Of a stretch of 54,394 nucleotides of DNA, positions 7,945-39,177 are shown piece after piece. A program made the translations under genes and the position numbers. Position 1 is the first letter of the stretch; the number at the start of each line of letters is the position of its first letter. The stretch is from Salipiger bermudensis (GTDB lineage: Bacteria > Pseudomonadota > Alphaproteobacteria > Rhodobacterales > Rhodobacteraceae), in contig NZ_JAHVIA010000013.1 of the NCBI RefSeq assembly GCF_019801965.1, positions 1-54,394 of the forward strand, given 5' to 3'. The notes under the pieces are model-generated. The model worked only from the letters and a program-made list of their open reading frames with translations. It was not told the origin of the DNA and ran no database searches.

Positions 7945-8810
7945 TGCAGCGGCGCGAGTTGCTGAAGGGGGCGGGCGCCGTGGCGCTCGCTTCCGCCGTG
8001 CCGCAATGGGCGGCAGCGGCCAACGGCCTGCCGGTCGCGGCGCCGGTCCATGTCGGCACGGTCGGGCTGCGTACCCGGGATGCCGAGGCGCTTGCCGCCT
8101 GGTATCGCGAGGCTGTCGGGCTGCAGGAGGTCGCCCGCGAGGGCGCGACCCTCTGGCTCGGCGCCGGCGGACAGCGGCTCCTGGCGCTGACCGAGCAGAG
8201 CGGCCTGTCATTGCCCGGGCAGCGCGAGGCGGGGCTCTTCCACACCGCCTTCCTGTTGCCGTCGCGCCGCGATCTGGCGCAGTGGATCGGCATGGCGATC
8301 GATCGCCGGGTGCCGGTCACCGGCAGCGCCGACCACCGGGTCAGCGAGGCGGTCTACCTCACCGATCCCGAGGGCAATGGCGTCGAGATCTATGCCGACC
8401 GCCCGGAAGACAGCTGGGAGTGGATCGGCGGCGAGGTCCAGATGGGCACCTACGCTCTCGATGTCGAAGGCATCATGGGCACGCTCGGGATGTTGCCGCC
8501 GCTCTGGCAGGGGGCGCCCGCGGGCACCACGGTCGGTCACGTGCACCTCAAGGTCGGGGATGCGCCGCGGGCGGGGCGCTGGTGGCGCGAGACGATGGGC
8601 TTCGACGCGGTGAGCACCCGCGATGACGCGGTGTTCCTCTCGACCGGCGGCTACCATCACCACGTGGCCGTCAACCAGTGGCTCAGCGCAGGGGCCGGAC
8701 GACGCTCCGACCGCGAGACCGGGCTCGACTTCGTCGAACTGCGCCGCGCGCAGGCCGGCGACCAGGCGAGCTACCAGGACGACTGGGGCACCACGATCCG
8801 GCTGGTCTGA
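7944..8810 (+). CDS. Tat-exported two-domain VOC (CatE-like) protein
   Basis: A 288-residue vicinal-oxygen-chelate protein. Residues 1-26 are a twin-arginine signal (MQRRELLKG, then an Ala-rich core ending WAAA). The mature part has two glyoxalase-like halves. Half one starts VHVGTVGLRTRD and ends with EAVYLTDPEGNGVEIYADRP. Half two has GHVHLKVGD, then YHHHVAVNQW. These are the motifs of CatE-type catechol 2,3-dioxygenases (COG2514); the GHVH and YHHH histidines and VEIY glutamate are the likely metal ligands. CatE homologues are usually cytoplasmic, so an exported version coupled to DoxX is odd. Substrate unknown; it may be a dioxygenase or a metal-binding relative. Confidence 0.7.
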   Translation: MQRRELLKGAGAVALASAVPQWAAAANGLPVAAPVHVGTVGLRTRDAEALAAWYREAVGLQEVAREGATLWLGAGGQRLLALTEQSGLSLPGQREAGLFHTAFLLPSRRDLAQWIGMAIDRRVPVTGSADHRVSEAVYLTDPEGNGVEIYADRPEDSWEWIGGEVQMGTYALDVEGIMGTLGMLPPLWQGAPAGTTVGHVHLKVGDAPRAGRWWRETMGFDAVSTRDDAVFLSTGGYHHHVAVNQWLSAGAGRRSDRETGLDFVELRRAQAGDQASYQDDWGTTIRLV

Positions 8811-8970
8811 CCGGCTCCGGCGTCGCCCGATGTGGCGGCGCCGGCCTTGCTCTCGCTGAGGCCGAGCCTTGCTGCCGGCGGGGCGCCATGCGTGTCATCG
8901 GTATCTGCTCCCCAGCACCGCACCAGCGCAAAGCAGATGTGACGCGCGACCTCGCGCCGTTCTGCCTCGA

Positions 8971-25257: not shown

Positions 25258-25992
25258 TCAGGTCAGTTCTGTGTCGAGCGGCTCGGTGGTGCCGCCCAGG
25301 AAGGCACGCTGCACCGCCGGGTCGTCGCGCAGCTCATCCGCGCTGCCGCTGCCCACCACGCGGCCCGCCTCGAGCAGGTAGCCGCGGCTGGCGAGCGCCA
25401 GGCTGGCGCGCACGTTCTGCTCGACGATGACCAGCGTCAGCCCGGTCTCGCGGATGCGGGCGAGCGCGGCAAAGACCTCCTTGGTGACGATCGGCGCGAG
25501 GCCGAGGCTGGGCTCGTCGAGCAGCAGCAGGTCGGGCCCGGACATCAGCGCGCGGGCGATGGCCACCATCTGCTGCTCGCCACCCGACATGGTGCCGACA
25601 AGCTGCCGCTGACGCTCGGCGAGGCGCGGGAACAGCGCCAGCACCTCGGCGCGCCGATCTTCGGCCCCGTGGCGGGCGCGCTCCGGGTGGCCGCCGAGTG
25701 CGAGGTTGTCGGCGACGCTCATGCGGGCGAAGATGCCGCGCCCCTCGGGCACCAGCGCGATGCCGCGCTCGACGATGGCGTGGGGCGGGACGGTGGCAAG
25801 ATCGGTGCCCTCGTGCAGGATACGGCCCGAGGCCGGGCGCAGCACCCCGCCCACCGCCTTCAGCAGCGAGGACTTGCCGGCCCCGTTGGCACCGAGGATC
25901 ACCACGCATTCGCCGGGCGAGACTCGCATCGACACGCCGTCGAGCGCGGTGTGCTTGCCATAGGCCAGCCGCAGGCTGTCGATCTCAAGCAT
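25258..25992 (-). CDS. livF: Branched-chain/aromatic ABC transporter ATPase LivF
   Basis: A 244-residue ATPase of the HAAT family. Walker A is ILGANGAGKSSLLK, the signature MSGGEQQMVAIARAL, Walker B LLLLDEPSLGLAP; the C-terminus is short, as in LivF. It pairs with LivG and overlaps it by 8 bases. The presence of an aldehyde dehydrogenase downstream argues for aromatic rather than amino-acid transport. Confidence 0.85.
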   Translation of the reverse strand: MLEIDSLRLAYGKHTALDGVSMRVSPGECVVILGANGAGKSSLLKAVGGVLRPASGRILHEGTDLATVPPHAIVERGIALVPEGRGIFARMSVADNLALGGHPERARHGAEDRRAEVLALFPRLAERQRQLVGTMSGGEQQMVAIARALMSGPDLLLLDEPSLGLAPIVTKEVFAALARIRETGLTLVIVEQNVRASLALASRGYLLEAGRVVGSGSADELRDDPAVQRAFLGGTTEPLDTELT

Positions 25993-26713
25993 CCTCTTCT
26001 CCCAGGTAGGCGGCGACGACGTGGGGATCGGAAAGCACCGCGTCCGTCGGCCCGTCGGCGATCAGCTTGCCGGAGTTCATCACCGCGCAGCGTGGGCAGA
26101 GGGCGCGCACCGCGTCCATGATGTGCTCGACCATGATGATGGTCAGGCCGGTCTCCTCGAGGCGCCGGATCAGCCCGATGCCCTCATGCAGCTCGGTCGG
26201 GTTGAGCCCGGCGAGCCATTCGTCGAGGAGCAGCAGACGCGGCCCGGCGGCGAGCGCGCGGGCCAGCTCGAGGCGCTTCTGGTCGATATAGGCCAGCTCC
26301 GAGGCGGCCTGACCGGCACGCGCGGCGAGCCCCACGGTCTCGAGGCATTCGGTGACCCGCGCCTCGAGCGGCGCGCCCCAGAGTCGGTCCGGCCCGAAGG
26401 CGGCGGGCACCATGACGTTCTCCCGCAGCGTCAGCGAGGGCAGGATGCGCACCAGCTGGAAGGTACGGGCGACGCCAGCCTTGGCGATGCGGTCAGGCCG
26501 CGCGCCGGTGAGGTCGCTGCCCGCGATCAGCAGCCTGCCCTCGGAGGGCTTCAGCGCCCCCGAGATCAGGTTCATCAGCGTGGTCTTGCCCGATCCGTTC
26601 GGCCCGAGCAGCCCCAGAACCTCGCCCTTGCGCACGGTTAGCGAGACGCCATCCACCGCCGTCAGCCCGCCGAAGCGCTTGGTGAGAGCGTCGGTTGTTA
26701 GCAGCTCACTCAT
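25985..26713 (-). CDS. livG: Branched-chain/aromatic ABC transporter ATPase LivG
   Basis: A 242-residue ATPase. Walker A is LLGPNGSGKTTLMNL; Walker B LLLLDEWLAGLNP follows a SELAYIDQKRLELARAL segment that replaces the usual LSGGxQ signature with a divergent form, as seen in LivG. The LivG-specific long helical insert before the signature is present. The start at 26713 (MSELLTTD) is set by the ATGA overlap with livM; an upstream-extended frame to 26896 reads as shadow sequence of livM. Confidence 0.85.
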   Translation of the reverse strand: MSELLTTDALTKRFGGLTAVDGVSLTVRKGEVLGLLGPNGSGKTTLMNLISGALKPSEGRLLIAGSDLTGARPDRIAKAGVARTFQLVRILPSLTLRENVMVPAAFGPDRLWGAPLEARVTECLETVGLAARAGQAASELAYIDQKRLELARALAAGPRLLLLDEWLAGLNPTELHEGIGLIRRLEETGLTIIMVEHIMDAVRALCPRCAVMNSGKLIADGPTDAVLSDPHVVAAYLGEEDA

Positions 26714-27639
26714 GCGGTGGCCTCCTTGCTGGCGCCGTTGCGCTTGGGCTTGCGCAGCCCCTCGATGGCGGCGAGCACGCCGTTGGGCAGCGCGTAGACC
26801 ACCGCCATGAACAGCAGCCCGAGCAGGATCGAGAAGTGATCGGGGAAGCGCGCCGAGAGCCACTCGAAGAGCAGGAACAGCGGCACCGCGCCGCAAAGCG
26901 GCCCCCAGAGCCGGGTCGCGCCGCCGAGCAGCGCCATGATCACGGTCAGGAAGCTGACCGTCGGGTTGAATACGATCGACGGCTCGACATAGACCCAGCG
27001 CGGCGCCTGGATCGCGCCCACGAGGGTGATGATCGTTGCCGAGGCCACGAAGAGCACCAGCTTGGAGCGCGCGAGGTTGATGCCGGAATGCGCCGCCACG
27101 GTCTCGTCATCGCCAATCACCCGCAGCGCGAGGCCGAGCCGCGAGCGCCGGATCCACGCGGCGAGCCCGATCGTGCAGACGCCGAGCGCCAGAAGCTGCC
27201 AGTAGATCTCGCGCGCGCCGAGATCGAGGAAGATGTAGCGCCCCAGCGTGCCGGTGACGTTGACCTCGAACCAGGTGATGAGCTGGCGCACCAACTCGGC
27301 CAGACCGAAGGAGAAGATCACGAAATAGATCCCCGCCAACCGCAGCGTCGAGAGCCCCACCAAGAGCGCCATAGTGGCGCCGATGCCGGCGGCGCAGAGC
27401 AGCACCAGCGGGTAGGGCAGCACCTCGTTCAGCACCGCCACGGTGTAGGCGCCGACCCCGAAGAAGGCGACGGTGGCGAGCGAGATGTAGCGCGTGGGCC
27501 CGGAGAACATCGCCCAGGCGGTCGCCAGCGTGACATAGCCCGCGAGCCCGACCAGCAGCCCGGTGCCATAGTCGCCAAGAAGAAACGGCAGGACGGAAAG
27601 CCCCCCAACCGAGACGGCTGCAATCCCCAGATACAGCAT
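26710..27639 (-). CDS. livM: ABC transporter permease LivM
   Basis: A 309-residue membrane protein with about eight to ten hydrophobic segments. It carries LivM-type features: an AWAMFSGPTRYISLATVAFFGVGAY region and the conserved cytoplasmic loop RSRLGLALRVIGDDETVAAHSGINLARSKL that contacts the ATPase. It overlaps livG by 4 bases and follows livH by 4 bases. Confidence 0.85.
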   Translation of the reverse strand: MLYLGIAAVSVGGLSVLPFLLGDYGTGLLVGLAGYVTLATAWAMFSGPTRYISLATVAFFGVGAYTVAVLNEVLPYPLVLLCAAGIGATMALLVGLSTLRLAGIYFVIFSFGLAELVRQLITWFEVNVTGTLGRYIFLDLGAREIYWQLLALGVCTIGLAAWIRRSRLGLALRVIGDDETVAAHSGINLARSKLVLFVASATIITLVGAIQAPRWVYVEPSIVFNPTVSFLTVIMALLGGATRLWGPLCGAVPLFLLFEWLSARFPDHFSILLGLLFMAVVYALPNGVLAAIEGLRKPKRNGASKEATA

Positions 27640-27643
27640 GCTC

Positions 27644-28516
27644 TCAGCCTCCCGCCCTGCCGAACAACCCCGTCGGCCGCCAGAGCAGCACCGCGAGGAA
27701 GAGTGTGTAGGTTGCCGCGAGCGTCAGCCCGGGATCGATGAAGGCGGCCACGAAGGTCTCGGCGAGCCCCAGAAGCAGCCCGGCGATCAGCGCGCCGAGA
27801 ATGTTGCCGACGCCGCCCATGATGACGACGATCAGCGCCTTCATGGTGAAGACCACACCATCGGTGGCCGAGAAGGTCTGGAACATCGAGACCAGCGCCC
27901 CGCCCGCCGCCGCCAGCGCCCCGCCGAGCGCAAAGCCCTGCCGGCCGAGCCGGTTGACGTCGATGCCGACGAGGTAGGCCGAGTCTGGTGCCAGCGCCAC
28001 GGCGCGCAGCGCCCGGCCCCAGCGCGAGCGCACCAGCACCGCGTAGAGCCCGAAGCCAATCACCAGCGACAGCACGAAGGCGATGAGCCGGTTGGCGGCG
28101 ACGGTGGTGCCGAGCAGCGCGATGCCGCGGTCGAGATAGCTGTAAGAGGTGAAATCGCTGCCGAAGCTCACCAGCATCAGCCCCTGGACGACGAAGAGCA
28201 GGCCGAAGGTGGCGAGGATGGTGTCGACCTCGAGCCGTCCGCCGCCGCCCGAGCGCTTGAGCAGCGGCCGCATCATCAACGCATGGATGCCCCAGCCGAG
28301 CGCGTAGCCCAGCGGCACCACCACCAGAAGGCCCCAGAGCGGGCCGATGCCCCAGCTGGTGAACATCATGAACACCGCGAAGCAGGCGAGCAGCATGAAC
28401 TCGCCATAGGCGAGGTTCATGATCCGGGCGATGCCGTATTGCAGCGACAGGCCGAGCGCCAGCAGCGCGTAGGTCCCGCCGAGCACCAGCCCGAGGAAGA
28501 GGGTCGATAGGATCAT
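27644..28516 (-). CDS. livH: ABC transporter permease LivH
   Basis: A 290-residue permease with about eight helices. GLVLGGTYALLALGLSLQYGIARIMNLAYGEFML at the N-terminus and RSRWGRALRAVALAPDSAYLVGIDVNRLG (coupling loop) are LivH signatures. The ATG at 28516 is preferred over an upstream start at 28546 because AAGGACGG sits at good ribosome-site spacing. Confidence 0.85.
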   Translation of the reverse strand: MILSTLFLGLVLGGTYALLALGLSLQYGIARIMNLAYGEFMLLACFAVFMMFTSWGIGPLWGLLVVVPLGYALGWGIHALMMRPLLKRSGGGGRLEVDTILATFGLLFVVQGLMLVSFGSDFTSYSYLDRGIALLGTTVAANRLIAFVLSLVIGFGLYAVLVRSRWGRALRAVALAPDSAYLVGIDVNRLGRQGFALGGALAAAGGALVSMFQTFSATDGVVFTMKALIVVIMGGVGNILGALIAGLLLGLAETFVAAFIDPGLTLAATYTLFLAVLLWRPTGLFGRAGG

Positions 28517-28562
28517 CGGGTGCCGTCCTTGGCGGGGCGGACGCAAGGCCCGCCCGCGCGGA

Positions 28563-29777
28563 TTACCATTCGGGTTTCGGGATCACCGGCGCAGCGGCGC
28601 CTTCGCGGTCGGCGGGGCTCACGGCGACGAAGCTGTCGCCCTGCCATTGCCCGACCCACCAGAGCTGGCGCAGCTGGTTGTCTTCCAGCTTGACCTCGCC
28701 CAGCACGGTCTCGAAAGACCCTGTCGAAAGCTCCTCGGCGAGCGCGGCGTGGTCGAGCCCGACGCGCTTGACCGCCTCTTCCAGCATCTCGAGCGAGGCA
28801 TAGGTGACGGCGCTGGCCCAGCTGTCGGGCGGGGCGCCGATGGTTTCGGTGTGGCGGGCGAAATAGTCCTGGATGGCCGGGTTGGCCGCGTCGACGCCGC
28901 CGATCGACATCACGCCTTCCTGCGCCCCGCCCGAGATCTTCTGGTAGACCGGGAAGGCGCCGCCGACGCCGATATAGAAGACCTTGGGATTGACGCCCGC
29001 GGTGATCGCCTGCTTGGTCACGCCGAAGCTGCCCGGCGGGTAGGAGAAGGCGACGAAGCTGTCGGCGCCCGAGCCCTGGACCTCGTTGAGGATGGTGGCG
29101 AAATCCGAGGTGCCGAGCGGGTAGCTCTCGTCGTAGACCAGCTCGAAGCCGGCCTCCTCGAAGGCCGGGCGTGCGGCTTTCACCAGGTCGATGCCGAAGC
29201 CGTCGGCGACCGAGATCATCGCCACCTTGTCGTTGATCGTGCCGGCCTCCTTGGCGGCGCTCAGGGTCTCGACCAGCGCGGTTGCGTAATCATGCCCGCC
29301 GCCCAGCATCCAGAACGAGCGCTCCCAGCGCGCGGCGAAGTCCGGCGCCTTGTCGGTGACCGCGGTCACGGCGAGCTGCGGATAGCCGAAGCGGTCCATC
29401 AGCGGCGCGATGGCGAGGTTGCCGCCGGTGCCCCAGGGCGGCAGGATCAGGTCGACCTCATCCTGCGTCGCGAGCCGCTCGATGGCGCGCACCAGATCCT
29501 CGGCGCTGGAGCGGTCGTCATACTCGATCACCTCGATCATGCGGCGGCTGCCATCGGGCATTTCGAGCCCTCCGGCGGCGTTTACCTCTCCGACCCAGAG
29601 CTCGTAATTGGGGATCGTGGTGATCCCGGCGCCGGTGGCGTTGGGGCCGGATTTCGATACCGCGTAGCCGATGGTGACGGTCTCGTCCTGCGCCGCCAGA
29701 GGCGCGCTCAGGGCCAGCGATGAGACCAGCGCAAGCGGCAGCGCGCGCAGCAGCGCGCGTCTCGAATTCAGTGACAT
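28563..29777 (-). CDS. ABC transporter substrate-binding protein (LivK/aromatic type)
   Basis: A 404-residue periplasmic-binding protein. The N-terminus MSLNSRRALLRALPLALVSS...PLAAQ is an export signal with a twin arginine. The mature part follows the type-I fold: IGYAVSKSGPNATGAG, EVIEYDDRSSAEDLVRAIERL, and FVAFSYPPGSFGVTKQ. It is longer than amino-acid LivK and resembles receptors near aromatic catabolic genes. An open frame runs on to 30632, but the GGGAGGAAA ribosome site and the export signal fix the start at 29777. It is the first gene of livKHMGF plus aldehyde dehydrogenase, divergent from the AraC gene. Confidence 0.8.
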   Translation of the reverse strand: MSLNSRRALLRALPLALVSSLALSAPLAAQDETVTIGYAVSKSGPNATGAGITTIPNYELWVGEVNAAGGLEMPDGSRRMIEVIEYDDRSSAEDLVRAIERLATQDEVDLILPPWGTGGNLAIAPLMDRFGYPQLAVTAVTDKAPDFAARWERSFWMLGGGHDYATALVETLSAAKEAGTINDKVAMISVADGFGIDLVKAARPAFEEAGFELVYDESYPLGTSDFATILNEVQGSGADSFVAFSYPPGSFGVTKQAITAGVNPKVFYIGVGGAFPVYQKISGGAQEGVMSIGGVDAANPAIQDYFARHTETIGAPPDSWASAVTYASLEMLEEAVKRVGLDHAALAEELSTGSFETVLGEVKLEDNQLRQLWWVGQWQGDSFVAVSPADREGAAAPVIPKPEW

Positions 29778-29891
29778 CAGTTTCCTCCCGTTGACGCCCC
29801 TCCCGGCGTCGTTCTGTGCCGCCAGCCGCCTGTCTCTCCCCGAGGCGATCTGGTGGATGCAGCGAGGGTAGAGGAAAAAGGCGTTGATAAA

Positions 29892-30821
29892 ATGCACTCG
29901 TGCAGGGAAGAATTGCACACATACGCCGTTTCTCCTGCCCAATCGGTGAACAGTTTGCCAACACGCCTGTCCCAGCTTCCCGCCCATCTCGGCCTCACGG
30001 CGCACCAGCTGCGCAGCCCGCTGGCCGAGGCCACCTTCGGTCTCAAGCCCGAAAGCGCCTGCCTGATGGTGCTCGAGGCAGGCCGCGCGCGGATCGGCGC
30101 GGGCGAGGCCGGCTGGCGCATCGAGGCACCGCGCTTCGTCTGGCTCGCAGGAGGCGCGCGGACCGATCTGCGCCTGTCGCCGGGCAGCCGGGGCGAGATC
30201 CTGATGATCTCGCGCGCGGCGCTCTCCAACGTGCTGCCAGCCAGCGCCTTCGGGGACGAGCTGAGCCGGGTGCTGACCAGCGATCTCTCGCTGCCGCTGG
30301 GAGACGAGCGGGCGCAGGTGACGCGGCTGCTGGGCGATCTGCGCGGCGAGCTGGCGGGCGGTGCGCCGGGCGCGGCGATCATGGCCGGGCATATCCTGTC
30401 GATGCTGCTGATCCAGCTCTGGCGCGGGGTAAAGGCGGGGCGCGAGCGCCCGGACGTGGCCACCGGCGGGCTGGTGCAGGGCTTCATCCAGCTGGCCGGG
30501 CTGCACCTGCGCGAGCATTGGGAGGTGGGCCAGTACGCCGCTGCGCTGGGCGTCTCGCGCGACCGTCTCTCGGCGGCGGTGCGGCGCGCCACGGGTCGCG
30601 CCCCGCAGGTCTGGCTGCACGAGGCGCTGCACCGCGAGGCGGTCGAGCTTCTGAGCAATTCCGGGCTGCAGGCGGCGCAGGTGGGGTTCCGGCTGGGCTT
30701 CTCCGACCCGGCCTATTTCAACCGTTTCTTCAAGCGCATGGAGGGCGTGCCGCCGAGCCGCTTCCGGCGCCGCCTGACGCGGCGCAGCGCGCCCGCGACC
30801 TCGTTTGCCGCCTGGCCCTGA
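29892..30821 (+). CDS. AraC-family regulator divergent from the liv operon
   Basis: A 309-residue transcription activator. The C-terminal third holds two helix-turn-helix motifs: HWEVGQYAAALGVSRDRLSAAVRRATG and GLQAAQVGFRLGFSDPAYFNRFFKRMEGVPPSRFR, the AraC signature. The N-terminal region is a cupin-like sensor rich in Ala/Leu. The start at 29892 is preceded by an AGGAAAAAGG ribosome site; GTG at 29946 is an alternative. Its first codons overlap a palindrome, which suggests autoregulation. It likely controls the divergent transporter operon, an inference from orientation. Confidence 0.8.
   Translation: MHSCREELHTYAVSPAQSVNSLPTRLSQLPAHLGLTAHQLRSPLAEATFGLKPESACLMVLEAGRARIGAGEAGWRIEAPRFVWLAGGARTDLRLSPGSRGEILMISRAALSNVLPASAFGDELSRVLTSDLSLPLGDERAQVTRLLGDLRGELAGGAPGAAIMAGHILSMLLIQLWRGVKAGRERPDVATGGLVQGFIQLAGLHLREHWEVGQYAAALGVSRDRLSAAVRRATGRAPQVWLHEALHREAVELLSNSGLQAAQVGFRLGFSDPAYFNRFFKRMEGVPPSRFRRRLTRRSAPATSFAAWP
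29893..29920. promoter_or_regulatory. TGCAC palindrome over the AraC gene start
   Basis: TGCAC-TC-GTGCA (29893-29904) is a perfect 5-bp dyad with a 2-nt centre, followed by TTGCACAC at 29913-29920 which repeats the half site. The block lies on the first codons of the regulator and about 115 bases before livK. AraC-type binding to repeated half sites is plausible. Confidence 0.4.
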
Positions 30822-30827
30822 GCCGGC

Positions 30828-31742
30828 TCAGATCCCCAGCGTCTCGATGGCGGCGGTGACCGCGAGGCGGAAGATCTCCTCGGCGGGGGGCGGCGTGGTC
30901 TCGGGGCGGGTCACCATGCCGACCGGGCCGATCGACATGGCGGTGTCGAAGGGCAGGCGCGCCAGCCGGCCCTCCTGCACCTCCTTGGCGACGACCCCGG
31001 CCGAGATGATCCAGATCGCGTCGGACGTGGGCACGTAGTTGCGCCCGAAGGCACCCGACACGGTCTCGAGCCGGCGCGGCGGCACCCCCACGCCCTGCGC
31101 GATCAGCAGTCGCTCGACCAGCGCCCGGATCGCCGCGCCCTCGGGCGGATAGATCACCGGCCAGTCGCCGATGCGGCGGATGTCGGGCGCGTCGAGCAGC
31201 GGGTGTCCGGGGCGCACCACGAAATCGAGATGCTCGTTGTAGAGCTGGGTGAAGGAGATGCCCTGCATGGTCTCGGGCGGCCCCATGCGGCCGATCACCA
31301 GATCAATCTGGCCGCGGCGCAGCAGGTCGATCAGGTAGGCGTGTGGGCCGTCGATGATGCGCAGCGTCACCTCGGGTGCCCGGGCAAAGAACTCATGCGT
31401 GACCTGCGGCATCAGCCGCGCCGCGACGCTGGGCAGCGCCCCCACGGTAAACGCCGTGCTGCCGCCGCGCCCGAGCTGCTCGATTTCGTCGAAGCCCTGT
31501 TGCAACGTCACGAGGCTGCGCTCGGCGAAATGCAGGAAGACCTCGCCCTGCCGGGTCAGCGCGATGCCGGCGCGGCTGCGGGTCAGCAGCGGGGTGCCGA
31601 GGATGTCCTCGAGCTCCTTCAGGGTCTTGGAGATCGCCGGCTGGGTGACAAACAGCGTCTCTGCCGCGCGTTTCAGGCTACGCTGGCGCACGATCTCGAC
31701 AAAGCTCTGGATGTGCCGAAACTTGATGCGGCGGTCGATCAT
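30828..31742 (-). CDS. pcaQ: LysR-family activator of protocatechuate genes (PcaQ)
   Basis: A 304-residue LysR regulator. The N-terminus MIDRRIKFRHIQSFVEIVRQRSLKRAAETLFVTQPAISKTLKELEDILG is the PcaQ-type helix-turn-helix. The effector domain ends with a Pro-rich region. It is divergent from pcaD, the classic arrangement in alphaproteobacteria, where PcaQ responds to beta-carboxy-cis,cis-muconate or related intermediates. The start at 31742 is the conserved N-terminus; the frame extends upstream to 31787 without homology. The stop lies 6 bases from the AraC stop, tail to tail. Confidence 0.9.
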   Translation of the reverse strand: MIDRRIKFRHIQSFVEIVRQRSLKRAAETLFVTQPAISKTLKELEDILGTPLLTRSRAGIALTRQGEVFLHFAERSLVTLQQGFDEIEQLGRGGSTAFTVGALPSVAARLMPQVTHEFFARAPEVTLRIIDGPHAYLIDLLRRGQIDLVIGRMGPPETMQGISFTQLYNEHLDFVVRPGHPLLDAPDIRRIGDWPVIYPPEGAAIRALVERLLIAQGVGVPPRRLETVSGAFGRNYVPTSDAIWIISAGVVAKEVQEGRLARLPFDTAMSIGPVGMVTRPETTPPPAEEIFRLAVTAAIETLGI

Positions 31743-31748
31743 GGCGTT

Positions 31749-31768
31749 ACTTGCCTGTTTGGTTAAGT
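31749..31768. promoter_or_regulatory. PcaQ-like binding site
   Basis: ACTTGCC...GGTTAAGT is an imperfect dyad; the right half GGTTAA (31761-31766) matches the known PcaQ half site of rhizobia (ATAACC-N4-GGTTAA), the left half is poor. It lies 7 bases before the pcaQ start codon and about 160 bases upstream of pcaD, in the divergent intergenic region. The pcaD leader also has a GCAGGCC/GGCCTGC stem at 31829-31860. Confidence 0.45.
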
Positions 31769-31926
31769 TAAGCGGCCCCGTTCTCATTTTACTTTCAATT
31801 CATCGTATGTGAAGACTTGGGCCGAGGCGCAGGCCTGCCTTTCTTCGGAAAACGGCCTGCGGATGGGAGACGGAGACACGCCGCCGCAGTCTAGGGCCGC
31901 GTGCGACCAGCAAGGAGAGCACCGCG

Positions 31927-32715
31927 ATGCGTAGCCTGCACGTGAACGGGATCGATCTGCATTGGCGTGAGGACGGCGACCCGCAGGGCGCGCCGGTGGT
32001 GTTCGCCAATTCGCTCGGCACCGATCTGCGGCTCTGGGACGATCTTTTGCCGCTGCTCCCCGAGGGGCTGCGGCTGATCCGCTACGACCTGCGCGGCCAC
32101 GGCCTCAGCGGCTGCCCCGCCGCCCCCTATGACATGGACACGCTGGTTTCGGATGCCGAGGCGCTGATCGCGGCGCTGGGCCTCGAGACCCCGGTCTTCG
32201 TCGGACTGTCGATCGGCGGCATGATCGGGCAGGGGCTGGCGGCGCGCCGACCCGGCCTGCTGCGCGGGCTGGTGCTGTCGAACACCGCCGCAAAGATGGG
32301 CGAGGCCGCCATGTGGCAGACCCGGATGCAGGCGATCCGCGACGGAGGGCTGGCCTCCATCGCGGACGCGGTGATGCAGCGCTGGTTCGCTCCGGCCTTT
32401 CTGGAAACTGACGCCCTGCCAGCCTGGCGCGCCATGATGTGCCGCACCCCGCAGGATGGCTATCTCGGCTGTTGCGCCGCCATTGCCGGCACCGACCTCG
32501 CCGCCAGCACCGCCAAGCTCGCGCTTCCGGTGCTCGGCATCGCGGGCTCGGATGACGGGGCGAGCCCGCCCGAGCTGGTCAAGGGCACCATCGACCTGAT
32601 CGACGGCGCCAGCTTCGAGATCATCGACGGCACCGGCCATCTGCCCTGCGCGGAGAAGCCCGATGCCTATGCTGAAATTCTCACGCATTTCCTGAAGGAG
32701 ATCGGACATGTCTGA
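31927..32715 (+). CDS. pcaD: 3-oxoadipate enol-lactonase
   Basis: A 262-residue alpha/beta-hydrolase. VFANSLGTDLRLWD is the oxyanion loop; GLSIGGMIGQ carries the nucleophilic Ser; GTGHLPCAEKPDAYA carries the catalytic His. It hydrolyses beta-ketoadipate enol-lactone to beta-ketoadipate. It is the first gene of the pcaDCHG operon and overlaps pcaC by 8 bases. GAGAGCACCGCG precedes the start. Confidence 0.92.
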   Translation: MRSLHVNGIDLHWREDGDPQGAPVVFANSLGTDLRLWDDLLPLLPEGLRLIRYDLRGHGLSGCPAAPYDMDTLVSDAEALIAALGLETPVFVGLSIGGMIGQGLAARRPGLLRGLVLSNTAAKMGEAAMWQTRMQAIRDGGLASIADAVMQRWFAPAFLETDALPAWRAMMCRTPQDGYLGCCAAIAGTDLAASTAKLALPVLGIAGSDDGASPPELVKGTIDLIDGASFEIIDGTGHLPCAEKPDAYAEILTHFLKEIGHV

Positions 32716-33094
32716 TCGTTACGACACCGGCATGTCGGTGCGGCGCAGCGTGCTGGGCGATGCCCATGTCGACCGCGCCGAGGCCGCCAAGACCGAGTAT
32801 GACCTGCCGTTCCAGACCCTCATCACCGAGAGCGCCTGGGGCACCGTCTGGGCCTCCGACGGCATCGCCCGCCGCGAGCGCTCGATGCTGACGCTGGCGC
32901 TGCTCGCCGCGATGGGCAATTTCGAGGAAATCCCGATGCACATCCGCGCCGCCACCCGCACCGGGGCCTCGCGCAGCGACATCATGGAAGCCTTCCAGCA
33001 TGTCGCCGTCTATTGCGGCGTGCCCAAGGCCAACCACGCCATCAAACTTGCCAAGCAGACCTGGGCAGAGCTCGATCAGGGAGAGGATTCATGA
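32708..33094 (+). CDS. pcaC: 4-carboxymuconolactone decarboxylase
   Basis: A 128-residue AhpD-fold enzyme. The conserved [42 protein letters not shown] block and [21 protein letters not shown] are PcaC hallmarks, with the His of FQHVAVYCG in the active site. It removes CO2 from gamma-carboxymuconolactone to give the enol-lactone that PcaD uses. Its stop overlaps the pcaH start (ATGA). Confidence 0.93.
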
Positions 33095-33816
33095 GCCAAG
33101 CAGAATTCTACCAGCGCGACCGCGAACGCCATCCGCCGGCGCTGACGCCGGATTACAAGACCAGCGTCATGCGCAGCCCGCGCGCCGCGCTGATCTCGCT
33201 GCAGCAATCGGTGTCCGAGATCACCGGCCCGGTTTTCGGCCACAACGACATCGACCCGATCGACAACGACCTGATCCACAACTACGCCAAGGGCGGCGAG
33301 AGCGCCATCGGCGAGCGGATCATCGTGCATGGCCGGGTGCTGGACGAGAACGGCCGCCCGGTGCCGAACACCCTCGTCGAGGCGTGGCAGGCCAATGCCG
33401 GCGGGCGCTACCGCCACAAGAAAGACACCTACCTCGCGCCGATTGACCCGAATTTCGGCGGCTGCGGCCGCACGATGACCGACGAGAACGGCTATTACTT
33501 CTTCCGCACGGTGAAGCCCGGCGCCTACCCGTGGCGCAACTGGGTCAACAACTGGCGCCCGGCCCACATCCACATGTCTGTCTTCGGCACCAGCTTCACC
33601 CAGCGCCTGATCACCCAGTGTTATTTCGAGGGCGACCCGCTGATCGCCAAGTGCCCGATCGTCAAGACGATACCGACACAGGACGGCATCGACAGCCTCG
33701 TCGCGGCGCTCGATCTCAACGCCACCGTGCCGCTGGACTCGATCGCCTACAAGTTTGACATTGTGTTGCGCGGCCGCCGCTCGACCCTGTTCGAGAACCG
33801 TCTGGAGGGGAATTGA
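33091..33816 (+). CDS. pcaH: Protocatechuate 3,4-dioxygenase beta subunit
   Basis: A 241-residue intradiol dioxygenase subunit. The Fe(III) ligands Tyr107 (GGRYRHKK), Tyr146 (PGAYPW), His159 and His161 ([11 protein letters not shown]) are all present, so this is the iron-bearing beta chain. With PcaG it opens the ring of protocatechuate to 3-carboxy-cis,cis-muconate. It starts at 33091 with GGAGAGGA upstream and is separated from pcaG by only 4 bases. Confidence 0.95.
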
Positions 33817-33820
33817 TCCA

Positions 33821-34513
33821 ATGGTGCAGAAACTCGACTACCTGAAAGAGACCCCGTCGCAGACCGCTGGTCCTTACGTCCATATCGGCCTCGCGCCCGG
33901 CGCCGCCGGCTTCGACATCTATCGCCAGGAGCTCGGTTGGGACATTGCCGGCCCGAACGCCAAGGGGGAGCGCATCCGCATCGAGGGCATCGTCATCGAC
34001 GGCACCGGCAACCCGGTGAAGGACGTGCTGATCGAGACCTGGCAAGCCAACGCGGAGGGTGTCTACGCCCATCCCGAGAGCGCCGGCGAGGTCGAAAAGG
34101 GCTTTCGCGGCTGGGGCCGCGTGATCACCGATTTCGAGACCGGCGAGTGGGGCTTCGACACCGTCAAGCCGGGCCCGGTGAAGGCGCGCAAGCCGCTGGG
34201 CTCCGGCCCGCTGCACCCGCCGGCCAATGCCGGGGATGACTGGCTTGGCCGTGGCGACGAGGGGCACGAGGACATGGCCCCGCATATCAACCTCTGGATC
34301 GTGGCGCGCGGGATCAATATCGGCCTGAACACGCGGCTCTATTTCGACGATGAGGAAGAGGCCAACGCCAAGGATCCGGTCCTGAACCTGATCGAGTGGC
34401 ACAACCGCCGCCCGACGCTGATCGCCAAGCGCGGCGAGCGTGACGGCAAGGTGGTCTACCGCTTCGACATCCGCCTGCAGGGCGAGGGCGAGACCGTCTT
34501 CTTCGACGTCTGA
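33821..34513 (+). CDS. pcaG: Protocatechuate 3,4-dioxygenase alpha subunit
   Basis: A 230-residue subunit with the same beta-sandwich core as PcaH but without the Fe-binding Tyr/His set. TPSQTAGPYVHIGLAPGAAGFDIY at the N-terminus and the GFRGWGRVITDFETGEWGFDTVKPG core are typical of PcaG. The C-terminus FRFDIRLQGEGETVFFDV-type tail closes the dioxygenase heterodimer. It follows pcaH with a 4-base gap and precedes the keto-acid cleavage gene. Confidence 0.93.
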   Translation: MVQKLDYLKETPSQTAGPYVHIGLAPGAAGFDIYRQELGWDIAGPNAKGERIRIEGIVIDGTGNPVKDVLIETWQANAEGVYAHPESAGEVEKGFRGWGRVITDFETGEWGFDTVKPGPVKARKPLGSGPLHPPANAGDDWLGRGDEGHEDMAPHINLWIVARGINIGLNTRLYFDDEEEANAKDPVLNLIEWHNRRPTLIAKRGERDGKVVYRFDIRLQGEGETVFFDV

Positions 34514-34573
34514 GACAATTGATTTCCGGCGCCGCCTTCCATGGGCGGCGCCTGTTTGCTGAAAGGGACGACC

Positions 34574-35410
34574 ATGGGGAAACCCTGCATCATCTGCGTC
34601 GCGATCACCGGATCGCTGCCGACCAAGGACAACAACCCGGCGGTGCCGATCACCGTCTCGGAACAGATCGAGAGCACGCAGGAGGCCTTCGAGGCCGGCG
34701 CCACCATCGCGCATTGCCACGTGCGCGACGACGAGGGCAAACCGACCTCGGATCCCGAGCGCTTCGGCAAGCTGCTCGAGGGCCTGCGGCAGCACTGCCC
34801 GGGCATGATCGTGCAGCTCTCCACCGGCGGCCGCTCCGGAGCCGGTCAGGCGCGCGGCGGCATGCTGCCCCTTAAGCCCGACATGGCCTCGCTCTCGGTC
34901 GGCTCCAACAATTTCCCGACCCGCGTCTACGAGAACCCGCCGGATCTCGTGGATTGGCTGGCCTCGGAGATGGTGGCCCACGGCGTGAAGCCCGAGATCG
35001 AGGCCTTCGACCTCAGCCACATCCTCAAGGCTTATGAGATGTGGCAGAAGGGCCAGATCGCGGCGCGCCCCTACGTGCAGTTCGTCATGGGCGTGAAGAA
35101 CGCCATGCCGGTCGACCGGATGGTGTTCGACTACTACATCCAGACCGTGAAGCGGCTCTTCGGTGACGAGGCCGCCTGGTGCGCTGCCGGCATCGGGCCG
35201 AACCAGATCGTGCTGAACGAGTGGGCGATCTCGCAGGGGGGGCACGCCCGCACCGGTCTCGAGGACAATGTCCGCATCGACCGCAACACGCTGGCGCCCT
35301 CCAACGCCGCGCTGGTCACCCGCGCCGCCGAGCTCTGCGACAAGTACGAGCGCCCTGTGGCCGACTGGCAGACCGCGCGCGAGATCCTCGGGCTGCCGCT
35401 GGTGGCCTGA
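34574..35410 (+). CDS. Beta-keto acid cleavage enzyme (BKACE/DUF849) in the pca operon
   Basis: A 278-residue zinc-dependent TIM-barrel enzyme of the Kce family. The metal ligands known for Kce (two His and a Glu) align as His47 and His49 in AHCHVRD and Glu230 in RTGLEDN. Family enzymes transfer the acyl part of a beta-keto acid to acetyl-CoA, releasing acetoacetate. Acting on beta-ketoadipate it would give succinyl-CoA and acetoacetate. It is 60 bases behind pcaG in the same direction, so co-expressed. No pcaIJ or pcaF is in the window. An inverted-repeat element begins 16 bases after its stop. Confidence 0.85.
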   Translation: MGKPCIICVAITGSLPTKDNNPAVPITVSEQIESTQEAFEAGATIAHCHVRDDEGKPTSDPERFGKLLEGLRQHCPGMIVQLSTGGRSGAGQARGGMLPLKPDMASLSVGSNNFPTRVYENPPDLVDWLASEMVAHGVKPEIEAFDLSHILKAYEMWQKGQIAARPYVQFVMGVKNAMPVDRMVFDYYIQTVKRLFGDEAAWCAAGIGPNQIVLNEWAISQGGHARTGLEDNVRIDRNTLAPSNAALVTRAAELCDKYERPVADWQTAREILGLPLVA

Positions 35411-35664: not shown

Positions 35665-36528
35665 CTACTCCCCCGTCCGCTCCCCGGAGACCCGCGCCCG
35701 GTAGGCGCTGGGCGTCTCGCCCATCCGCAGCCGGAAGCGGCGCGAGAAATAGGGCGGGTCGGCATAGCCCAGACGGTAGCCGACCTCGGCCACCGGAAGG
35801 CGGGTGAAGGCGATGAGGCGGCAGGCCTCGGTCATCACCGCGGTCTCGAGATAGGCGGTGAGGCTCATCCCCGCCGCGCCGCGCACCACCCGGTTGAGAT
35901 GCCCGGTGGTGACATGCAGCGTCGAGGCGTAATCCCGGGCGCTCCAGCCCTCGGCCAGATGCTCGGAGATCAGCGCGTCGAGCCGCTGCATCTGCCGGTT
36001 GGGATCGCGCGGCGAGGGCATCGCGGCCGTGCTTTCATCGGCGAGCACCGCCAGAAGCGCGTGGGTGAGCGAGACCAACCTCTGAGCGCGAAAATCACCA
36101 TTCGAGCCATAGGCCCCCTTGATCGAGGCCAGCAGCGCGTCCGCGCCCTCCGACAGCGCACCGTGCCGGTGCGTGCCGAGCCAGTCGCTCAGCGCCGGGG
36201 TCTTCGGTCCGAGGCGTGCCACCACCGGTGAGGGAATGGACAGAACCGTCCCCTCGGTGCCGCGGGTGAATTCGAAGCCATGCACGATCTGCGGCGGAAT
36301 ATAGAGGTATTGCCCCGGTTCGAGACGCGTCTCCGCGCCATCGAGCGTCACCCGTGCAGCGCCGGACGAGATCTGGAAGACCTGCGCCATCTGGGTGTGA
36401 CGGTGCGGCGAGATCACCCAGCCATGCAGCCCGGCGCGGTCGAGAACCGCCTCGCAATGCACCACGTCGGGAAAGGCCGTGGTTTCCCCGAAGAGGTTGA
36501 AGATGGGGATATGTGCAGGCTGGTTCAT
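35665..36528 (-). CDS. pobR: AraC-family regulator of pobA (PobR)
   Basis: A 287-residue AraC-type activator. The N-terminal cupin (HGWVISPHRHTQMAQVFQISSG, EPGQYLYIPPQIVHGFEF) binds effector; the C-terminus has two helix-turn-helices, GWSARDYASTLHVTTGHLNRVVRGAAG and RLPVAEVGYRLGYADPPYFSRRFRLRMGETPSAYR. It is divergent from pobA and 93 bases away, the usual position of the 4-hydroxybenzoate-responsive PobR. The start at 36528 overlaps a perfect palindrome; a longer frame to 36564 has no support. Confidence 0.85.
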   Translation of the reverse strand: MNQPAHIPIFNLFGETTAFPDVVHCEAVLDRAGLHGWVISPHRHTQMAQVFQISSGAARVTLDGAETRLEPGQYLYIPPQIVHGFEFTRGTEGTVLSIPSPVVARLGPKTPALSDWLGTHRHGALSEGADALLASIKGAYGSNGDFRAQRLVSLTHALLAVLADESTAAMPSPRDPNRQMQRLDALISEHLAEGWSARDYASTLHVTTGHLNRVVRGAAGMSLTAYLETAVMTEACRLIAFTRLPVAEVGYRLGYADPPYFSRRFRLRMGETPSAYRARVSGERTGE

Positions 36529-36552
36529 GCATGAATAATACCATTCAATGAA
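36524..36552. promoter_or_regulatory. TTCAT palindromes in the pobR-pobA intergenic region
   Basis: TTCATGCATGAA (36524-36535) is a perfect 12-bp palindrome overlapping the pobR start codon, and TTCAaTGAA (36544-36552) repeats its half sites one to two turns away. The pair lies about 70-95 bases before pobA, suited to control of both divergent genes. Confidence 0.5.
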
Positions 36553-36621
36553 GCTCCCGTCCATTCGCGGGAGGCTCCGCGCGGGCTAGTGTGCGGCAAC
36601 GCAAACGGGAGGAACTCGCGC

Positions 36622-37800
36622 ATGACTACCCTCAAGACCCAGGTCGCCATCATCGGAGGCGGCCCCTCCGGCCTGCTGCTGTCGCAACTGCTCAACAAAT
36701 CCGGTGTCGAGACCGTCATTCTCGAGCGCTCGACCAGGTCTCACGTGCTGTCGCGCATCCGGGCCGGCATCCTCGAATGGGGCACCGTCGAGCTCCTGCG
36801 CGCCGCCGGGGTCGAGGCCCGCATGGACAAGGAAGGCATCCCGCATGACGGCTGCTACCTGACCGATGACGAGCTCATGGTGCATATCGATTTCAAGGAG
36901 CTCACCGGTAAGCAGGTCATGGTCTATGGCCAGACCGAGGTGACCGCCGATCTCTACACCGCGCAGGACGCCATGGGCACGACCGTGCTGCACGAGGTCT
37001 CGGACGTGTCGATCCACGATCTCGACCAGCCCAGATCGCGCGTCGAGTTCACCCACCAGGGCGAGCGTAAGGTATTGGAATGCCTCTACGTCGCCGGGTG
37101 CGACGGCTTCCATGGGGTGTCGCGCAAGACCATCCCCGAGGAGAAGCGCGCCGAGTTCGAGCGGGTCTACCCGTTCGGCTGGCTCGGCATCCTGTCGGAG
37201 ACCCCGCCGGTCAATGACGAACTGATCTACTCGAACTCCAAGCACGGCTTCGCGCTGGCCTCGATGCGCAACGAGAAGCTCGTGCGCTACTATGTGCAGG
37301 TGCCGCTCACCGACACCGTTGAGGACTGGTCGGACCAGCGCTTCTGGGACGAGTTCAGCCGCAGGATCCCATCGGAGGCCGCGAGCCGCCTGGTCACCGG
37401 CCCGTCGATCGAGAAATCCATCGCGCCGCTGCGCAGCTTCGTCTCCGAACCGCTGCGCTGGGGCAACCTGTTCCTCGTGGGCGACTCGGCGCATATCGTG
37501 CCGCCGACCGGTGCCAAGGGCCTCAACCTCGCCGCCTCCGACGTGTTCTACCTGCACAGCGCGCTGATCGAGGCGGTCAACGGCAAGGGCACCGGCGGGA
37601 TCGACGATTACTCCTCGAAGGCGCTGGCGCGGATCTGGAAGGCGATGCGCTTCAGCTGGCAGATGACCACCATGCTGCACCGCTTCGATGGCGAGGACGC
37701 CTTCGCCGAGCAGATGCGCAAGGCGACGCTGGATCACCTCGCCCATTCCGAGACCGCGCGGCGTGATCTGGCCGAGAATTATATCGGCCTGCCGTTCTGA
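36622..37800 (+). CDS. pobA: 4-hydroxybenzoate 3-monooxygenase
   Basis: A 392-residue FAD monooxygenase that turns 4-hydroxybenzoate, O2 and NADPH into protocatechuate. The FAD dinucleotide fold VAIIGGGPSGLLLSQLL is at residues 8-24, the DG motif is VAGCDGFHGVSRK, and GDSAHIVPPTGAKGLNLAASD is the FAD-ribityl motif; FYLHSALIEA follows. Length matches the family (about 394). A CGGGAGGAA ribosome site precedes the start at 36622. It links the hydroxycinnamate and pca segments of the region. Confidence 0.94.
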   Translation: MTTLKTQVAIIGGGPSGLLLSQLLNKSGVETVILERSTRSHVLSRIRAGILEWGTVELLRAAGVEARMDKEGIPHDGCYLTDDELMVHIDFKELTGKQVMVYGQTEVTADLYTAQDAMGTTVLHEVSDVSIHDLDQPRSRVEFTHQGERKVLECLYVAGCDGFHGVSRKTIPEEKRAEFERVYPFGWLGILSETPPVNDELIYSNSKHGFALASMRNEKLVRYYVQVPLTDTVEDWSDQRFWDEFSRRIPSEAASRLVTGPSIEKSIAPLRSFVSEPLRWGNLFLVGDSAHIVPPTGAKGLNLAASDVFYLHSALIEAVNGKGTGGIDDYSSKALARIWKAMRFSWQMTTMLHRFDGEDAFAEQMRKATLDHLAHSETARRDLAENYIGLPF

Positions 37801-38115: not shown

Positions 38116-39177
38116 TCAGCCTCCGGGAGCCGCCCCGAGCCGGGTCACCTTGCCCGCGATGTCCTGCGCCACGGCGAGCGCGCGCGCCGTGGTCATCAGC
38201 ATTTGCGGCAGCACCATCCATTCCAGCGTCCACGCCACCCCGGAGCGCTCCTGCTCGTGCAGCATGGCGTGGTGCATGGCGCTGACCTGCGTGGCGTTGT
38301 AGCGCGCCAGCGTCACCAGAAGCTCGGCCGCCACCGGGTTCTGCTTGTGCGGCATGGCAGAGGAGCCGCCGCCGCCCGAGAGCGCGACCTCCTCGATGCC
38401 CTGCTGCGCCATCAGCGCCATGTCGGTGCCGATCTTGCCCAGCGTGCCGGTCACCAGCGACAGGAAGGAGGCATAGCCCGCGATGCCCTCGCGCATGGCG
38501 TGCCACGCCTTTTCGGTCGGCGCGAGGCCCAGCTCCTGCGCGACCGCGGCGACCACCGCCTCGGCCTTGTCGCCAAGCGCCTTGCGGTCGCCCGAGGCGC
38601 CTCCGATCTGCACCCGCTCGACCTGCGGACGCAGCGCGGCGAGGCGCTCGCGGTGCCCCGAGAGTGGCAGGCGCCAGGCCAGAAGCCGGTCGCGTACGGT
38701 GATCTCGGTGGCGGCCTGCATCCGGGTGCGGCCCATCAGGGGGCTGTTGCCAAACCGCGCCTCGAGTGCCGCGAGCGCCTTGTCGAGCCCGGCAAGCCGC
38801 GCGTCGATCAGGGCCGACGCCTCGCGCAGCGTCAGCACCAGCGCGGTATCGACGACATCCTGGGAGGTGGCGCCCTTGTGAACCGCCTCGCCCGGCGCCA
38901 GCGCCTTGAGCTGTTTCACCAGACGCGGCACTGGCACGCCGTCCTGCGCCATGCCGGCGGCGATATCCGCGAAGTCGATCTCGGCGCTCTCGATGGCGGT
39001 GGCGGCCTGTGCGGCGGTCTCGGGATCGAAAAGCCCGGCGGCACCGCAGGCCCGCGACCAGGCCGCCTCGAAGGCGAGCATCTGCGCCATCTGACGCTCG
39101 GGCGAGAGCAGCGCGGCCATTTCGGGATCGTTGAACAGCCCCGACAGCCAGGGGTGGTCGAAAACGGCGCTGGTCAT
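38116..39177 (-). CDS. pcaB: 3-carboxy-cis,cis-muconate cycloisomerase
   Basis: A 353-residue member of the fumarase/aspartase superfamily. The signature GGGGSSAMPHKQNPVAAELL is present; GATSQDVVDTALVLTLREA and RTRMQAATEITVRDRL are the other conserved regions. It lactonises carboxymuconate to gamma-carboxymuconolactone, the step between PcaHG and PcaC. It lies apart from pcaDCHG, on the opposite strand beyond pobA. AAGGAGCACG precedes the start. Shorter than bacterial pcaB proteins of about 450 residues but similar to roseobacter forms. Confidence 0.88.
   Translation of the reverse strand: MTSAVFDHPWLSGLFNDPEMAALLSPERQMAQMLAFEAAWSRACGAAGLFDPETAAQAATAIESAEIDFADIAAGMAQDGVPVPRLVKQLKALAPGEAVHKGATSQDVVDTALVLTLREASALIDARLAGLDKALAALEARFGNSPLMGRTRMQAATEITVRDRLLAWRLPLSGHRERLAALRPQVERVQIGGASGDRKALGDKAEAVVAAVAQELGLAPTEKAWHAMREGIAGYASFLSLVTGTLGKIGTDMALMAQQGIEEVALSGGGGSSAMPHKQNPVAAELLVTLARYNATQVSAMHHAMLHEQERSGVAWTLEWMVLPQMLMTTARALAVAQDIAGKVTRLGAAPGG

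Follow-up and report, generated by a model that had tools for sequence, protein, structure and literature searches.

How does a bacterium finish the breakdown of protocatechuate, a lignin-type aromatic acid, when the CoA-transferase PcaIJ and the thiolase PcaF are not encoded beside its other pca genes? The question is raised by a stretch of Salipiger bermudensis DNA (RefSeq assembly GCF_019801965.1, contig NZ_JAHVIA010000013.1), here called the window, whose 54,394 nucleotides are the entire contig C13; the assembly comprises 32 contigs, totals 4.83 Mb, and is rated 99.97% complete. In it, a gene for a member of the beta-keto acid cleavage enzyme (BKACE) family, referred to below as KCE, follows pcaG in the same direction, as the initial annotation had pointed out: the two are on the same strand and 60 nt apart, the pcaG stop codon ending at 34513 and the KCE open reading frame occupying 34574 to 35410 of the forward strand. 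KCE, a predicted 3-oxoadipate:acetyl-CoA acetyltransferase, very probably takes the place of PcaIJF as the last enzyme of the beta-ketoadipate pathway for protocatechuate.

Family and catalytic residues of KCE

What kind of enzyme is KCE? The founding papers on the BKACE family are said to be Bastard 2014 and Bellinzoni 2011. The KCE frame translates into 278 amino acids with zero internal stops, and the protein covers the whole of the Pfam profile PF05853 (BKACE/DUF849; positions 1-274 of 274), scoring 305.7 bits where 24.8 is the cut-off. More specifically, residues 3-275 match the NCBIfam equivalog NF053568, "3-oxoadipate:acetyl-CoA acetyltransferase," at 487.1 bits, far over its cut-off of 350. 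This match is near full length, the metal and base residues are retained, and no difference in sequence was found between KCE and the equivalog, whose short name hints at Cupriavidus necator H16 as the reference organism. A Salipiger bermudensis KCE protein is 98% identical to that of the window. Three further BKACE-type models match KCE, all well under cut-off. The closest solved chains are 3fa5, 3chv, and 3no5, the first two aligning over nearly the full length.

Residue conservation was read from 81 sequences, namely, the window's KCE and those of 80 loci kept of the 344 found in a survey of KCE contexts. The Zn-binding set singled out by the initial annotation, His47, His49, and Glu230, is present and invariant (81/81). 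So is Glu143, which, mapped via a second BKACE of the same genome, is equivalent to E171, the catalytic Glu of BKACE15 (PMC11961710, section 9). The Kce of lysine fermentation (PDB 2y7d) belongs to the same family and has the same type of chemistry; its metal ligands and its counterparts of Glu143 and Arg226 align with those of KCE, in which Arg226 is retained. The two differ in that they match at only 167 bits, in their predicted substrates, and at two positions, where KCE has Arg87 and Phe145 and 2y7d has Ala and Tyr. Arg87 is invariant in all 81 sequences and, judging from the alignment, is a candidate holder of the substrate's second carboxylate.

Phe145 is the unusual residue. It is found in 81/81 sequences, as well as in chains 3fa5, 3chv, and 3no5, at a position where a preprint claims Tyr for all BKACE sequences (Tyr145 in Cloacimonas Kce, Tyr173 in BKACE15; PMC12871164). 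KCE therefore departs from the catalytic-site Tyr criterion of that preprint. Because both the Pfam and the NCBIfam profiles include KCE, the published rule is treated here as failing for the NF053568-type subfamily. Either the Tyr is dispensable for cleavage or the subfamily is mechanistically different; the first option is favored, and the conserved Phe145 offers a test of which residues the BKACE reaction requires. The second BKACE, on contig C1 (47555-48448; locus L002:1480-2403, minus strand), has Tyr at the Phe145 position and Ser at the Arg87 position, and matches NF053538, "3,5-dioxohexanoate:acetyl-CoA acetone transferase," with a score of 512 bits, the cut-off being 430.

PcaI, PcaJ, and PcaF are not found

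The initial annotation had also stated that neither PcaIJ nor PcaF is encoded in the window, and the contig indeed gives zero matches to the PcaI/ScoA-family model TIGR02429 or the PcaF-family model TIGR02430 at E <= 0.001. What of the rest of the genome, which it had proposed to search? No PcaF exceeds the TIGR02430 cut-off anywhere in the assembly. The best match reaches 400.2 bits against 597 and passes the cut-off of the BktB subfamily. It shares 49% identity with a true PcaF; for comparison, a pair of true PcaFs share 76% over 258 amino acids. The PcaI/ScoA family has three A-subunit members in the genome. Taking as reference the PcaI of locus L100, which lies beside a PcaF, and E <= 1e-90 as the threshold for orthologues, the window's genome has no PcaI orthologue: the three A subunits share 55, 41, and 42% identity with the reference, while the orthologues detected in 44 of 292 related genomes (the query itself aside) are 70-85% identical to it. 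As far as sequence can tell, then, PcaIJF are missing from the genome, an assembly gap being unlikely though possible.

The company KCE keeps

What substrate do the neighbors of KCE point to? Among the 80 loci, 54 carry pcaG/H, and in 50 of these pcaG lies at most 400 bp upstream of KCE on the same strand, so that the pcaG-KCE order is not chance. In another 8 of the 80, pcaG/H is replaced by a hydroxyquinol-type dioxygenase gene and a maleylacetate-reductase-like gene. Compared with solved structures, a representative of the dioxygenases is best matched by 6-chlorohydroxyquinol 1,2-dioxygenase, and a representative of the reductases has maleylacetate reductases among its top three matches; both representatives score under the NCBIfam cut-offs of the models they match. 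Catechol-type neighbors occur as well: L033 and L048 have a catechol 1,2-dioxygenase over cut-off and a benzoate-dioxygenase-type gene, L048 with a muconate cycloisomerase in addition. L050 has PcaD, L057 a PcaDC fusion, and L014 a PcaC-like gene slightly under cut-off. The protocatechuate, hydroxyquinol, and catechol routes all lead to beta-ketoadipate. Clusters for all three beside KCE therefore point to beta-ketoadipate as its substrate. Together with the equivalog match and a genome in which neither PcaF over cut-off nor a PcaI orthologue is found, these neighborhoods lend support to the initial annotation's proposal that KCE may replace PcaIJF.

In five loci (L056, L068, L083, L084, and L085), KCE directly follows an FAD monooxygenase gene and the hydroxyquinol-type dioxygenase gene. 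The maleylacetate-reductase-like gene is upstream, adjoining in L056 and L068 and about 8 kb off in L083-L085, where Liv-type transporter genes intervene. Judged by gene content, these would be resorcinol/hydroxyquinol-type clusters ending in KCE. A literature search found no paper combining "keto acid cleavage" with "hydroxyquinol." In L048, from a Paracoccus metagenome-assembled genome, the KCE copy (8001-8822) has an internal stop and lies near catA, catB, and a benA-type fragment; it is either a pseudogene or an assembly error.

Distribution among relatives

Does KCE take the place of PcaIJ in related genomes? The relatives are 292 genomes sharing one family label, with KCE over cut-off in 208 and pcaH in 176. 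KCE accompanies pcaH in 172 of these 176: KCE without PcaI occurs in 147, both in 25, PcaI only in three (G020, G024, and G256), and neither in one (G023). KCE and PcaI are negatively associated among the pcaH-positive genomes (p = 0.013, hinging on the four that lack KCE) and among the pcaH-negative ones (p = 0.02).

PcaI orthologues were used in these counts because TIGR02430 also catches phenylacetate thiolases, for which reason PcaF was dropped as a marker of the canonical route. The cut-off of the model is exceeded in 185/292 relatives, but one thiolase that passes it lies in a phenylacetate cluster, near PaaC (over cut-off) and a PaaX-like regulator (below cut-off; congener G039, L095:7693-8892, minus strand). 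By this marker no negative association with KCE appears in the 176 pcaH-positive genomes (124 with both, 48 with KCE only, two with PcaF only, two with neither). A "PcaF" annotation in Rhodobacteraceae can thus mislead pathway reconstruction.

Beyond the family the picture changes. A class-level sample of 190 genomes, three of them Rhodobacteraceae, has KCE over cut-off in 10, pcaH in 33, and both in five, three of which are the Rhodobacteraceae. The other 28 pcaH-positive genomes, all outside Rhodobacteraceae, lack KCE, and 23 of them match the PcaF model over cut-off, with its noted reach into phenylacetate thiolases. From these counts, the KCE ending looks like a habit of the family, not the class.

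What lies at the locus when KCE is lacking? G020 was considered as a genome with neither ending and rejected, as it has a PcaI (80% identical to that of L100) and a PcaF truncated where its contig stops (the 76% over 258 amino acids mentioned above). In G023 no PcaIJF was found, and KCE is likewise lacking. Both genomes encode a 232-amino-acid alpha/beta hydrolase between pcaG and pcaB, where KCE often sits (L096:6425-7123, minus strand, and L097:9103-9801, plus strand, respectively); the two hydrolases are 94% identical.

A proposed route and its balance

How would the pathway run? PobA, PcaHG, PcaB, PcaC, and PcaD would generate beta-ketoadipate. KCE, by family a Zn-dependent TIM-barrel enzyme, would then move the two-carbon end of beta-ketoadipate onto acetyl-CoA, releasing succinyl-CoA and acetoacetate (beta-ketoadipate + acetyl-CoA -> succinyl-CoA + acetoacetate). 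A 3-oxoacid CoA-transferase (SCOT) pair encoded on contig C1 (~394.8-396.1 kb) would use succinyl-CoA to convert acetoacetate to acetoacetyl-CoA (acetoacetate + succinyl-CoA -> acetoacetyl-CoA + succinate), and a thiolase would give back two acetyl-CoA (acetoacetyl-CoA + CoA -> 2 acetyl-CoA), one of which would prime the next KCE turnover. PcaIJ and PcaF, which are absent, would be unneeded, and KCE would presumably be essential for growth on protocatechuate.

The case for an acetoacetate branch draws on neighboring genes, too. In L017-L019 (a metagenome-assembled genome and two Donghicola species), a ScoA/ScoB CoA-transferase pair comes after KCE-pcaB, its first gene beginning at the pcaB stop in L017 and L018. 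The C1 pair corresponds to it, with about 90% identity at the protein level, and both its subunits exceed 3-oxoacid CoA-transferase cut-offs. A Bosea (L021) has a different CoA-transferase gene downstream of KCE. As for thiolases, one in the window's genome is over the acetyl-CoA C-acetyltransferase cut-off and two are best matched by such models, below cut-off. A related BKACE is inhibited by acetoacetate with an IC50 (half-maximal inhibitory concentration) of 1.45 mM (PMC11961710), and a CoA-transferase would be needed for that reason. In another BKACE pathway, deoxyribonate use by Paraburkholderia bryophila, fitness data indicate a need for acetoacetate-to-acetyl-CoA genes (PMC6365646).

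Does this route alter the yield? The initial annotation had expected a different carbon and CoA balance, an expectation that simple arithmetic does not support: the three reactions add up to beta-ketoadipate + CoA -> succinate + acetyl-CoA, which equals PcaIJ plus PcaF. Its overall interpretation is thus supported as to the replacement but not as to the balance, which would differ only with ATP-driven activation of acetoacetate or its diversion; nothing over cut-off for acetoacetate-CoA ligase is present in the window's genome. Compared with the canonical ending, the input is the same and so is the net output once SCOT and thiolase are added. The protein families, by contrast, are unrelated, and KCE is a single enzyme with no beta-ketoadipyl-CoA intermediate.

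Published precedents

Replacement of pcaIJF by KCE is already in print and is not new. Methylobacterium pca clusters without pcaIJF have been described in which a DUF849 gene, possibly acting on beta-ketoadipate, lies between pcaG and pcaB (PMC8963497). A later paper names the gene kce, draws a one-step bypass, and proposes succinyl-CoA and acetoacetate as products; there, the M. nodulans genes pcaHGBL+kce, cloned without pcaIJF, enable M. extorquens PA1 to grow on protocatechuate, and none of the paper's five mentions of kce describes its deletion (PMC12379598). A Methylobacterium extorquens SLI gene island is said to encode PcaIJ and PcaF (PMC12542667). As in the window, kce follows pcaG in the Methylobacterium cluster, which has no pcaIJF. 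The window differs in having separate pcaC and pcaD genes (pcaL in the M. nodulans construct) and pcaB on the opposite strand, and in its organism the absence of pcaIJF has been checked across the whole genome. A beta-ketoadipate cleavage enzyme has also been suggested in Ralstonia eutropha H16, with a link to protocatechuate dioxygenase genes noted (PMC6449761). Its catBCD-COG3246 operon ties a BKACE member to a beta-ketoadipate-forming pathway, like KCE, though to the catechol branch and in Betaproteobacteria. The BKACE group given for beta-ketoadipate varies between citing papers, being G4 in one (PMC8963497) and G3 in a table of another (PMC4922564).

Alternative explanations and the roseobacter pathway

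What weighs against KCE as the terminal enzyme? Thirteen of the 80 loci have no recognized partner (one or two neighbors are annotated in eleven, none in L060 and L080), 36 of the 208 KCE-positive relatives lack pcaH over cut-off, and the KCE-PcaI association over all 292 genomes is not significant (p = 0.07). The 25 pcaH-positive relatives with both KCE and PcaI mean that KCE is not always a replacement; redundancy does occur, as Paracoccus siganidrum (L029) has an IclR-pcaIJF block downstream of KCE and pcaB. Phe145 stands where other BKACEs have a Tyr thought to be catalytic, and the window's genome holds possible substitutes for the canonical enzymes in its BktB-like thiolase and the CoA-transferase 55% identical to PcaI. 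Lastly, a 2025 study of Roseovarius nubinhibens, a member of the same family as Salipiger in the NCBI taxonomy, describes the roseobacter pathway as incomplete for over 20 years and assigns the step to PcaIJ and several thiolases (PMC12442348).

That assignment, carried over to the window, is the leading rival. A SCOT-like CoA-transferase would activate beta-ketoadipate, general thiolases (BktB or acetyl-CoA acetyltransferase) would cleave beta-ketoadipyl-CoA, and KCE would be accessory. The parts are at hand, since the genome encodes no fewer than four thiolases besides the three CoA-transferase A subunits. In R. nubinhibens, growth on 4-hydroxybenzoate fails in a CoA-transferase mutant. PcaF and an acyltransferase are each dispensable, the double mutant reaching only a lower final density; other thiolases are said to make up for PcaF, and an acetyl-CoA acetyltransferase is up in edited strains. 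The authors proposed crosstalk with beta-oxidation (PMC12442348). These phenotypes are largely what KCE plus SCOT plus acetoacetyl-CoA thiolase would also predict, and the main text of the study nowhere uses "cleavage enzyme," "DUF849," "aminohexanoate," or "acetoacetate." In wild type on 4-hydroxybenzoate, that acetyl-CoA acetyltransferase is down, its two paralogues are unchanged, and the acyltransferase is up (PMC12442348), a pattern that fits the authors' reading no less well. The CoA-transferase genes of the window's genome keep other company: one pair has a RipC-like lyase gene (131 bits, cut-off 375) and a TRAP-TAXI subunit nearby, a second adjoins topA and dprA, and leuB is close to the third. 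Set against these neighbors and the near-constant pairing of KCE with pcaH, activation by a substitute CoA-transferase is improbable.

Might KCE instead act mainly on some other beta-keto acid of aromatic breakdown? BKACEs are promiscuous, and BKACE15 of P. denitrificans has several confirmed substrates (PMC11961710), though it is only distantly similar to KCE (107 bits). Such a role is quite unlikely given that NF053568 is named for its substrate, that the three kinds of neighboring cluster have beta-ketoadipate as their common product, and that the genome's second BKACE falls in a different equivalog. More doubtful still is the idea that Phe145 makes KCE resemble BsfD, a flavophos enzyme, so that KCE would C-acetylate beta-ketoadipate without retro-Claisen cleavage, decarboxylation then giving succinylacetone. 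A Phe in all 81 sequences would fit, and the preprint does suggest that the Tyr-to-Phe exchange in BsfD may matter for the different chemistry of that enzyme (PMC12871164, section 8). BsfD has an insertion of about 20 residues following strand beta-3, of which KCE shows no sign: its alignment with 2y7d spans residues 3-274 with one-residue gaps only. Productive cleavage is also what the equivalog name and the growth data from Methylobacterium imply; this idea can be set almost wholly aside.

With KCE as the probable terminal enzyme of the window's pathway, could the same hold across roseobacters? A broader reading, toward which the balance tips modestly, is that in roseobacters and relatives the classical PcaIJF has been largely displaced, with KCE as the default point of convergence of the protocatechuate, hydroxyquinol, and catechol routes and a SCOT-type CoA-transferase and acetoacetyl-CoA thiolase recycling acetoacetate. 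The "missing" step and the crosstalk phenotypes of R. nubinhibens would then reflect the KCE route, with SCOT as the true identity of "pcaI" there and beta-ketoadipyl-CoA off the main path. The KCE gene is present in Roseovarius gaetbuli and Roseovarius sp. CAU 1744, its presence in R. nubinhibens itself being unconfirmed. If this is true, PcaIJF-based models and engineered strains in the family err in their two final steps, an intermediate open to being drawn off, acetoacetate, has been overlooked, and acetyl-CoA is required to prime the pathway. The value of the locus lies in presenting KCE as the usual ending in the family beside several upstream routes, which bears on the recently published roseobacter pathway.

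Organization of the locus

To briefly describe the surrounding genes, the LysR-type activator gene pcaQ (30828-31787, minus strand; TIGR02424, 430.7 bits against 303.8) is divergent from pcaD-pcaC-pcaH-pcaG-KCE on the plus strand. These comprise pcaD, the 3-oxoadipate enol-lactonase whose product is beta-ketoadipate (31927-32715; TIGR02427, 296 bits against 255.9); pcaC, 4-carboxymuconolactone decarboxylase (32708-33094; TIGR02425, 191 against 155.7); and the protocatechuate 3,4-dioxygenase beta and alpha subunits, pcaH (33091-33816; TIGR02422, 381.6 against 296.4) and pcaG (33821-34513; TIGR02423, 246 against 126). Beyond KCE follow an AraC-family regulator gene (35665-36564, minus strand) with HTH_18 and Cupin_2 domains, PobR-like by position and reaching 115 bits with the HpaA model, below its cut-off of 274.65; divergent from it, pobA, the 4-hydroxybenzoate 3-monooxygenase that supplies protocatechuate (36622-37800, plus strand; TIGR02360, 622.7 bits against 538.7); and pcaB (38116-39177, minus strand; NF004631, 443.5 bits against 371, with TIGR02426 at 340.8, slightly below its cut-off of 355.75). 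The start codons of pcaG, pcaH, and pobA were picked by eye. The KCE start, ATG at 34574, has a Shine-Dalgarno-like stretch, AAAGGGA, just upstream; an alternative in-frame ATG at 34541 is, by eye, less likely.

The spacer between pcaG and KCE contains a hairpin with a 10-bp stem (34528-34552, plus strand), and the spacer folds to -25.1 kcal/mol (z = -2.6 against dinucleotide shuffles). Among the 50 loci with adjacent pcaG, eight have spacers of 51-59 nt and the other 42 of at most 33 nt. All eight long spacers fold to about -21 to -27 kcal/mol, and their sequences differ; z values, computed for six of the eight and for the window, range from -1.0 to -3.1. A PcaQ-box motif has no match in the pcaQ-pcaD spacer at three or fewer mismatches; across the window this motif has nine matches against 5.3 expected. 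On the far side of pcaQ, an AraC regulator gene (29853-30821, plus strand) adjoins what, by eye, are branched-chain-amino-acid-type ABC transporter genes with a binding protein (25985-30632, minus strand), perhaps serving aromatic-acid uptake.
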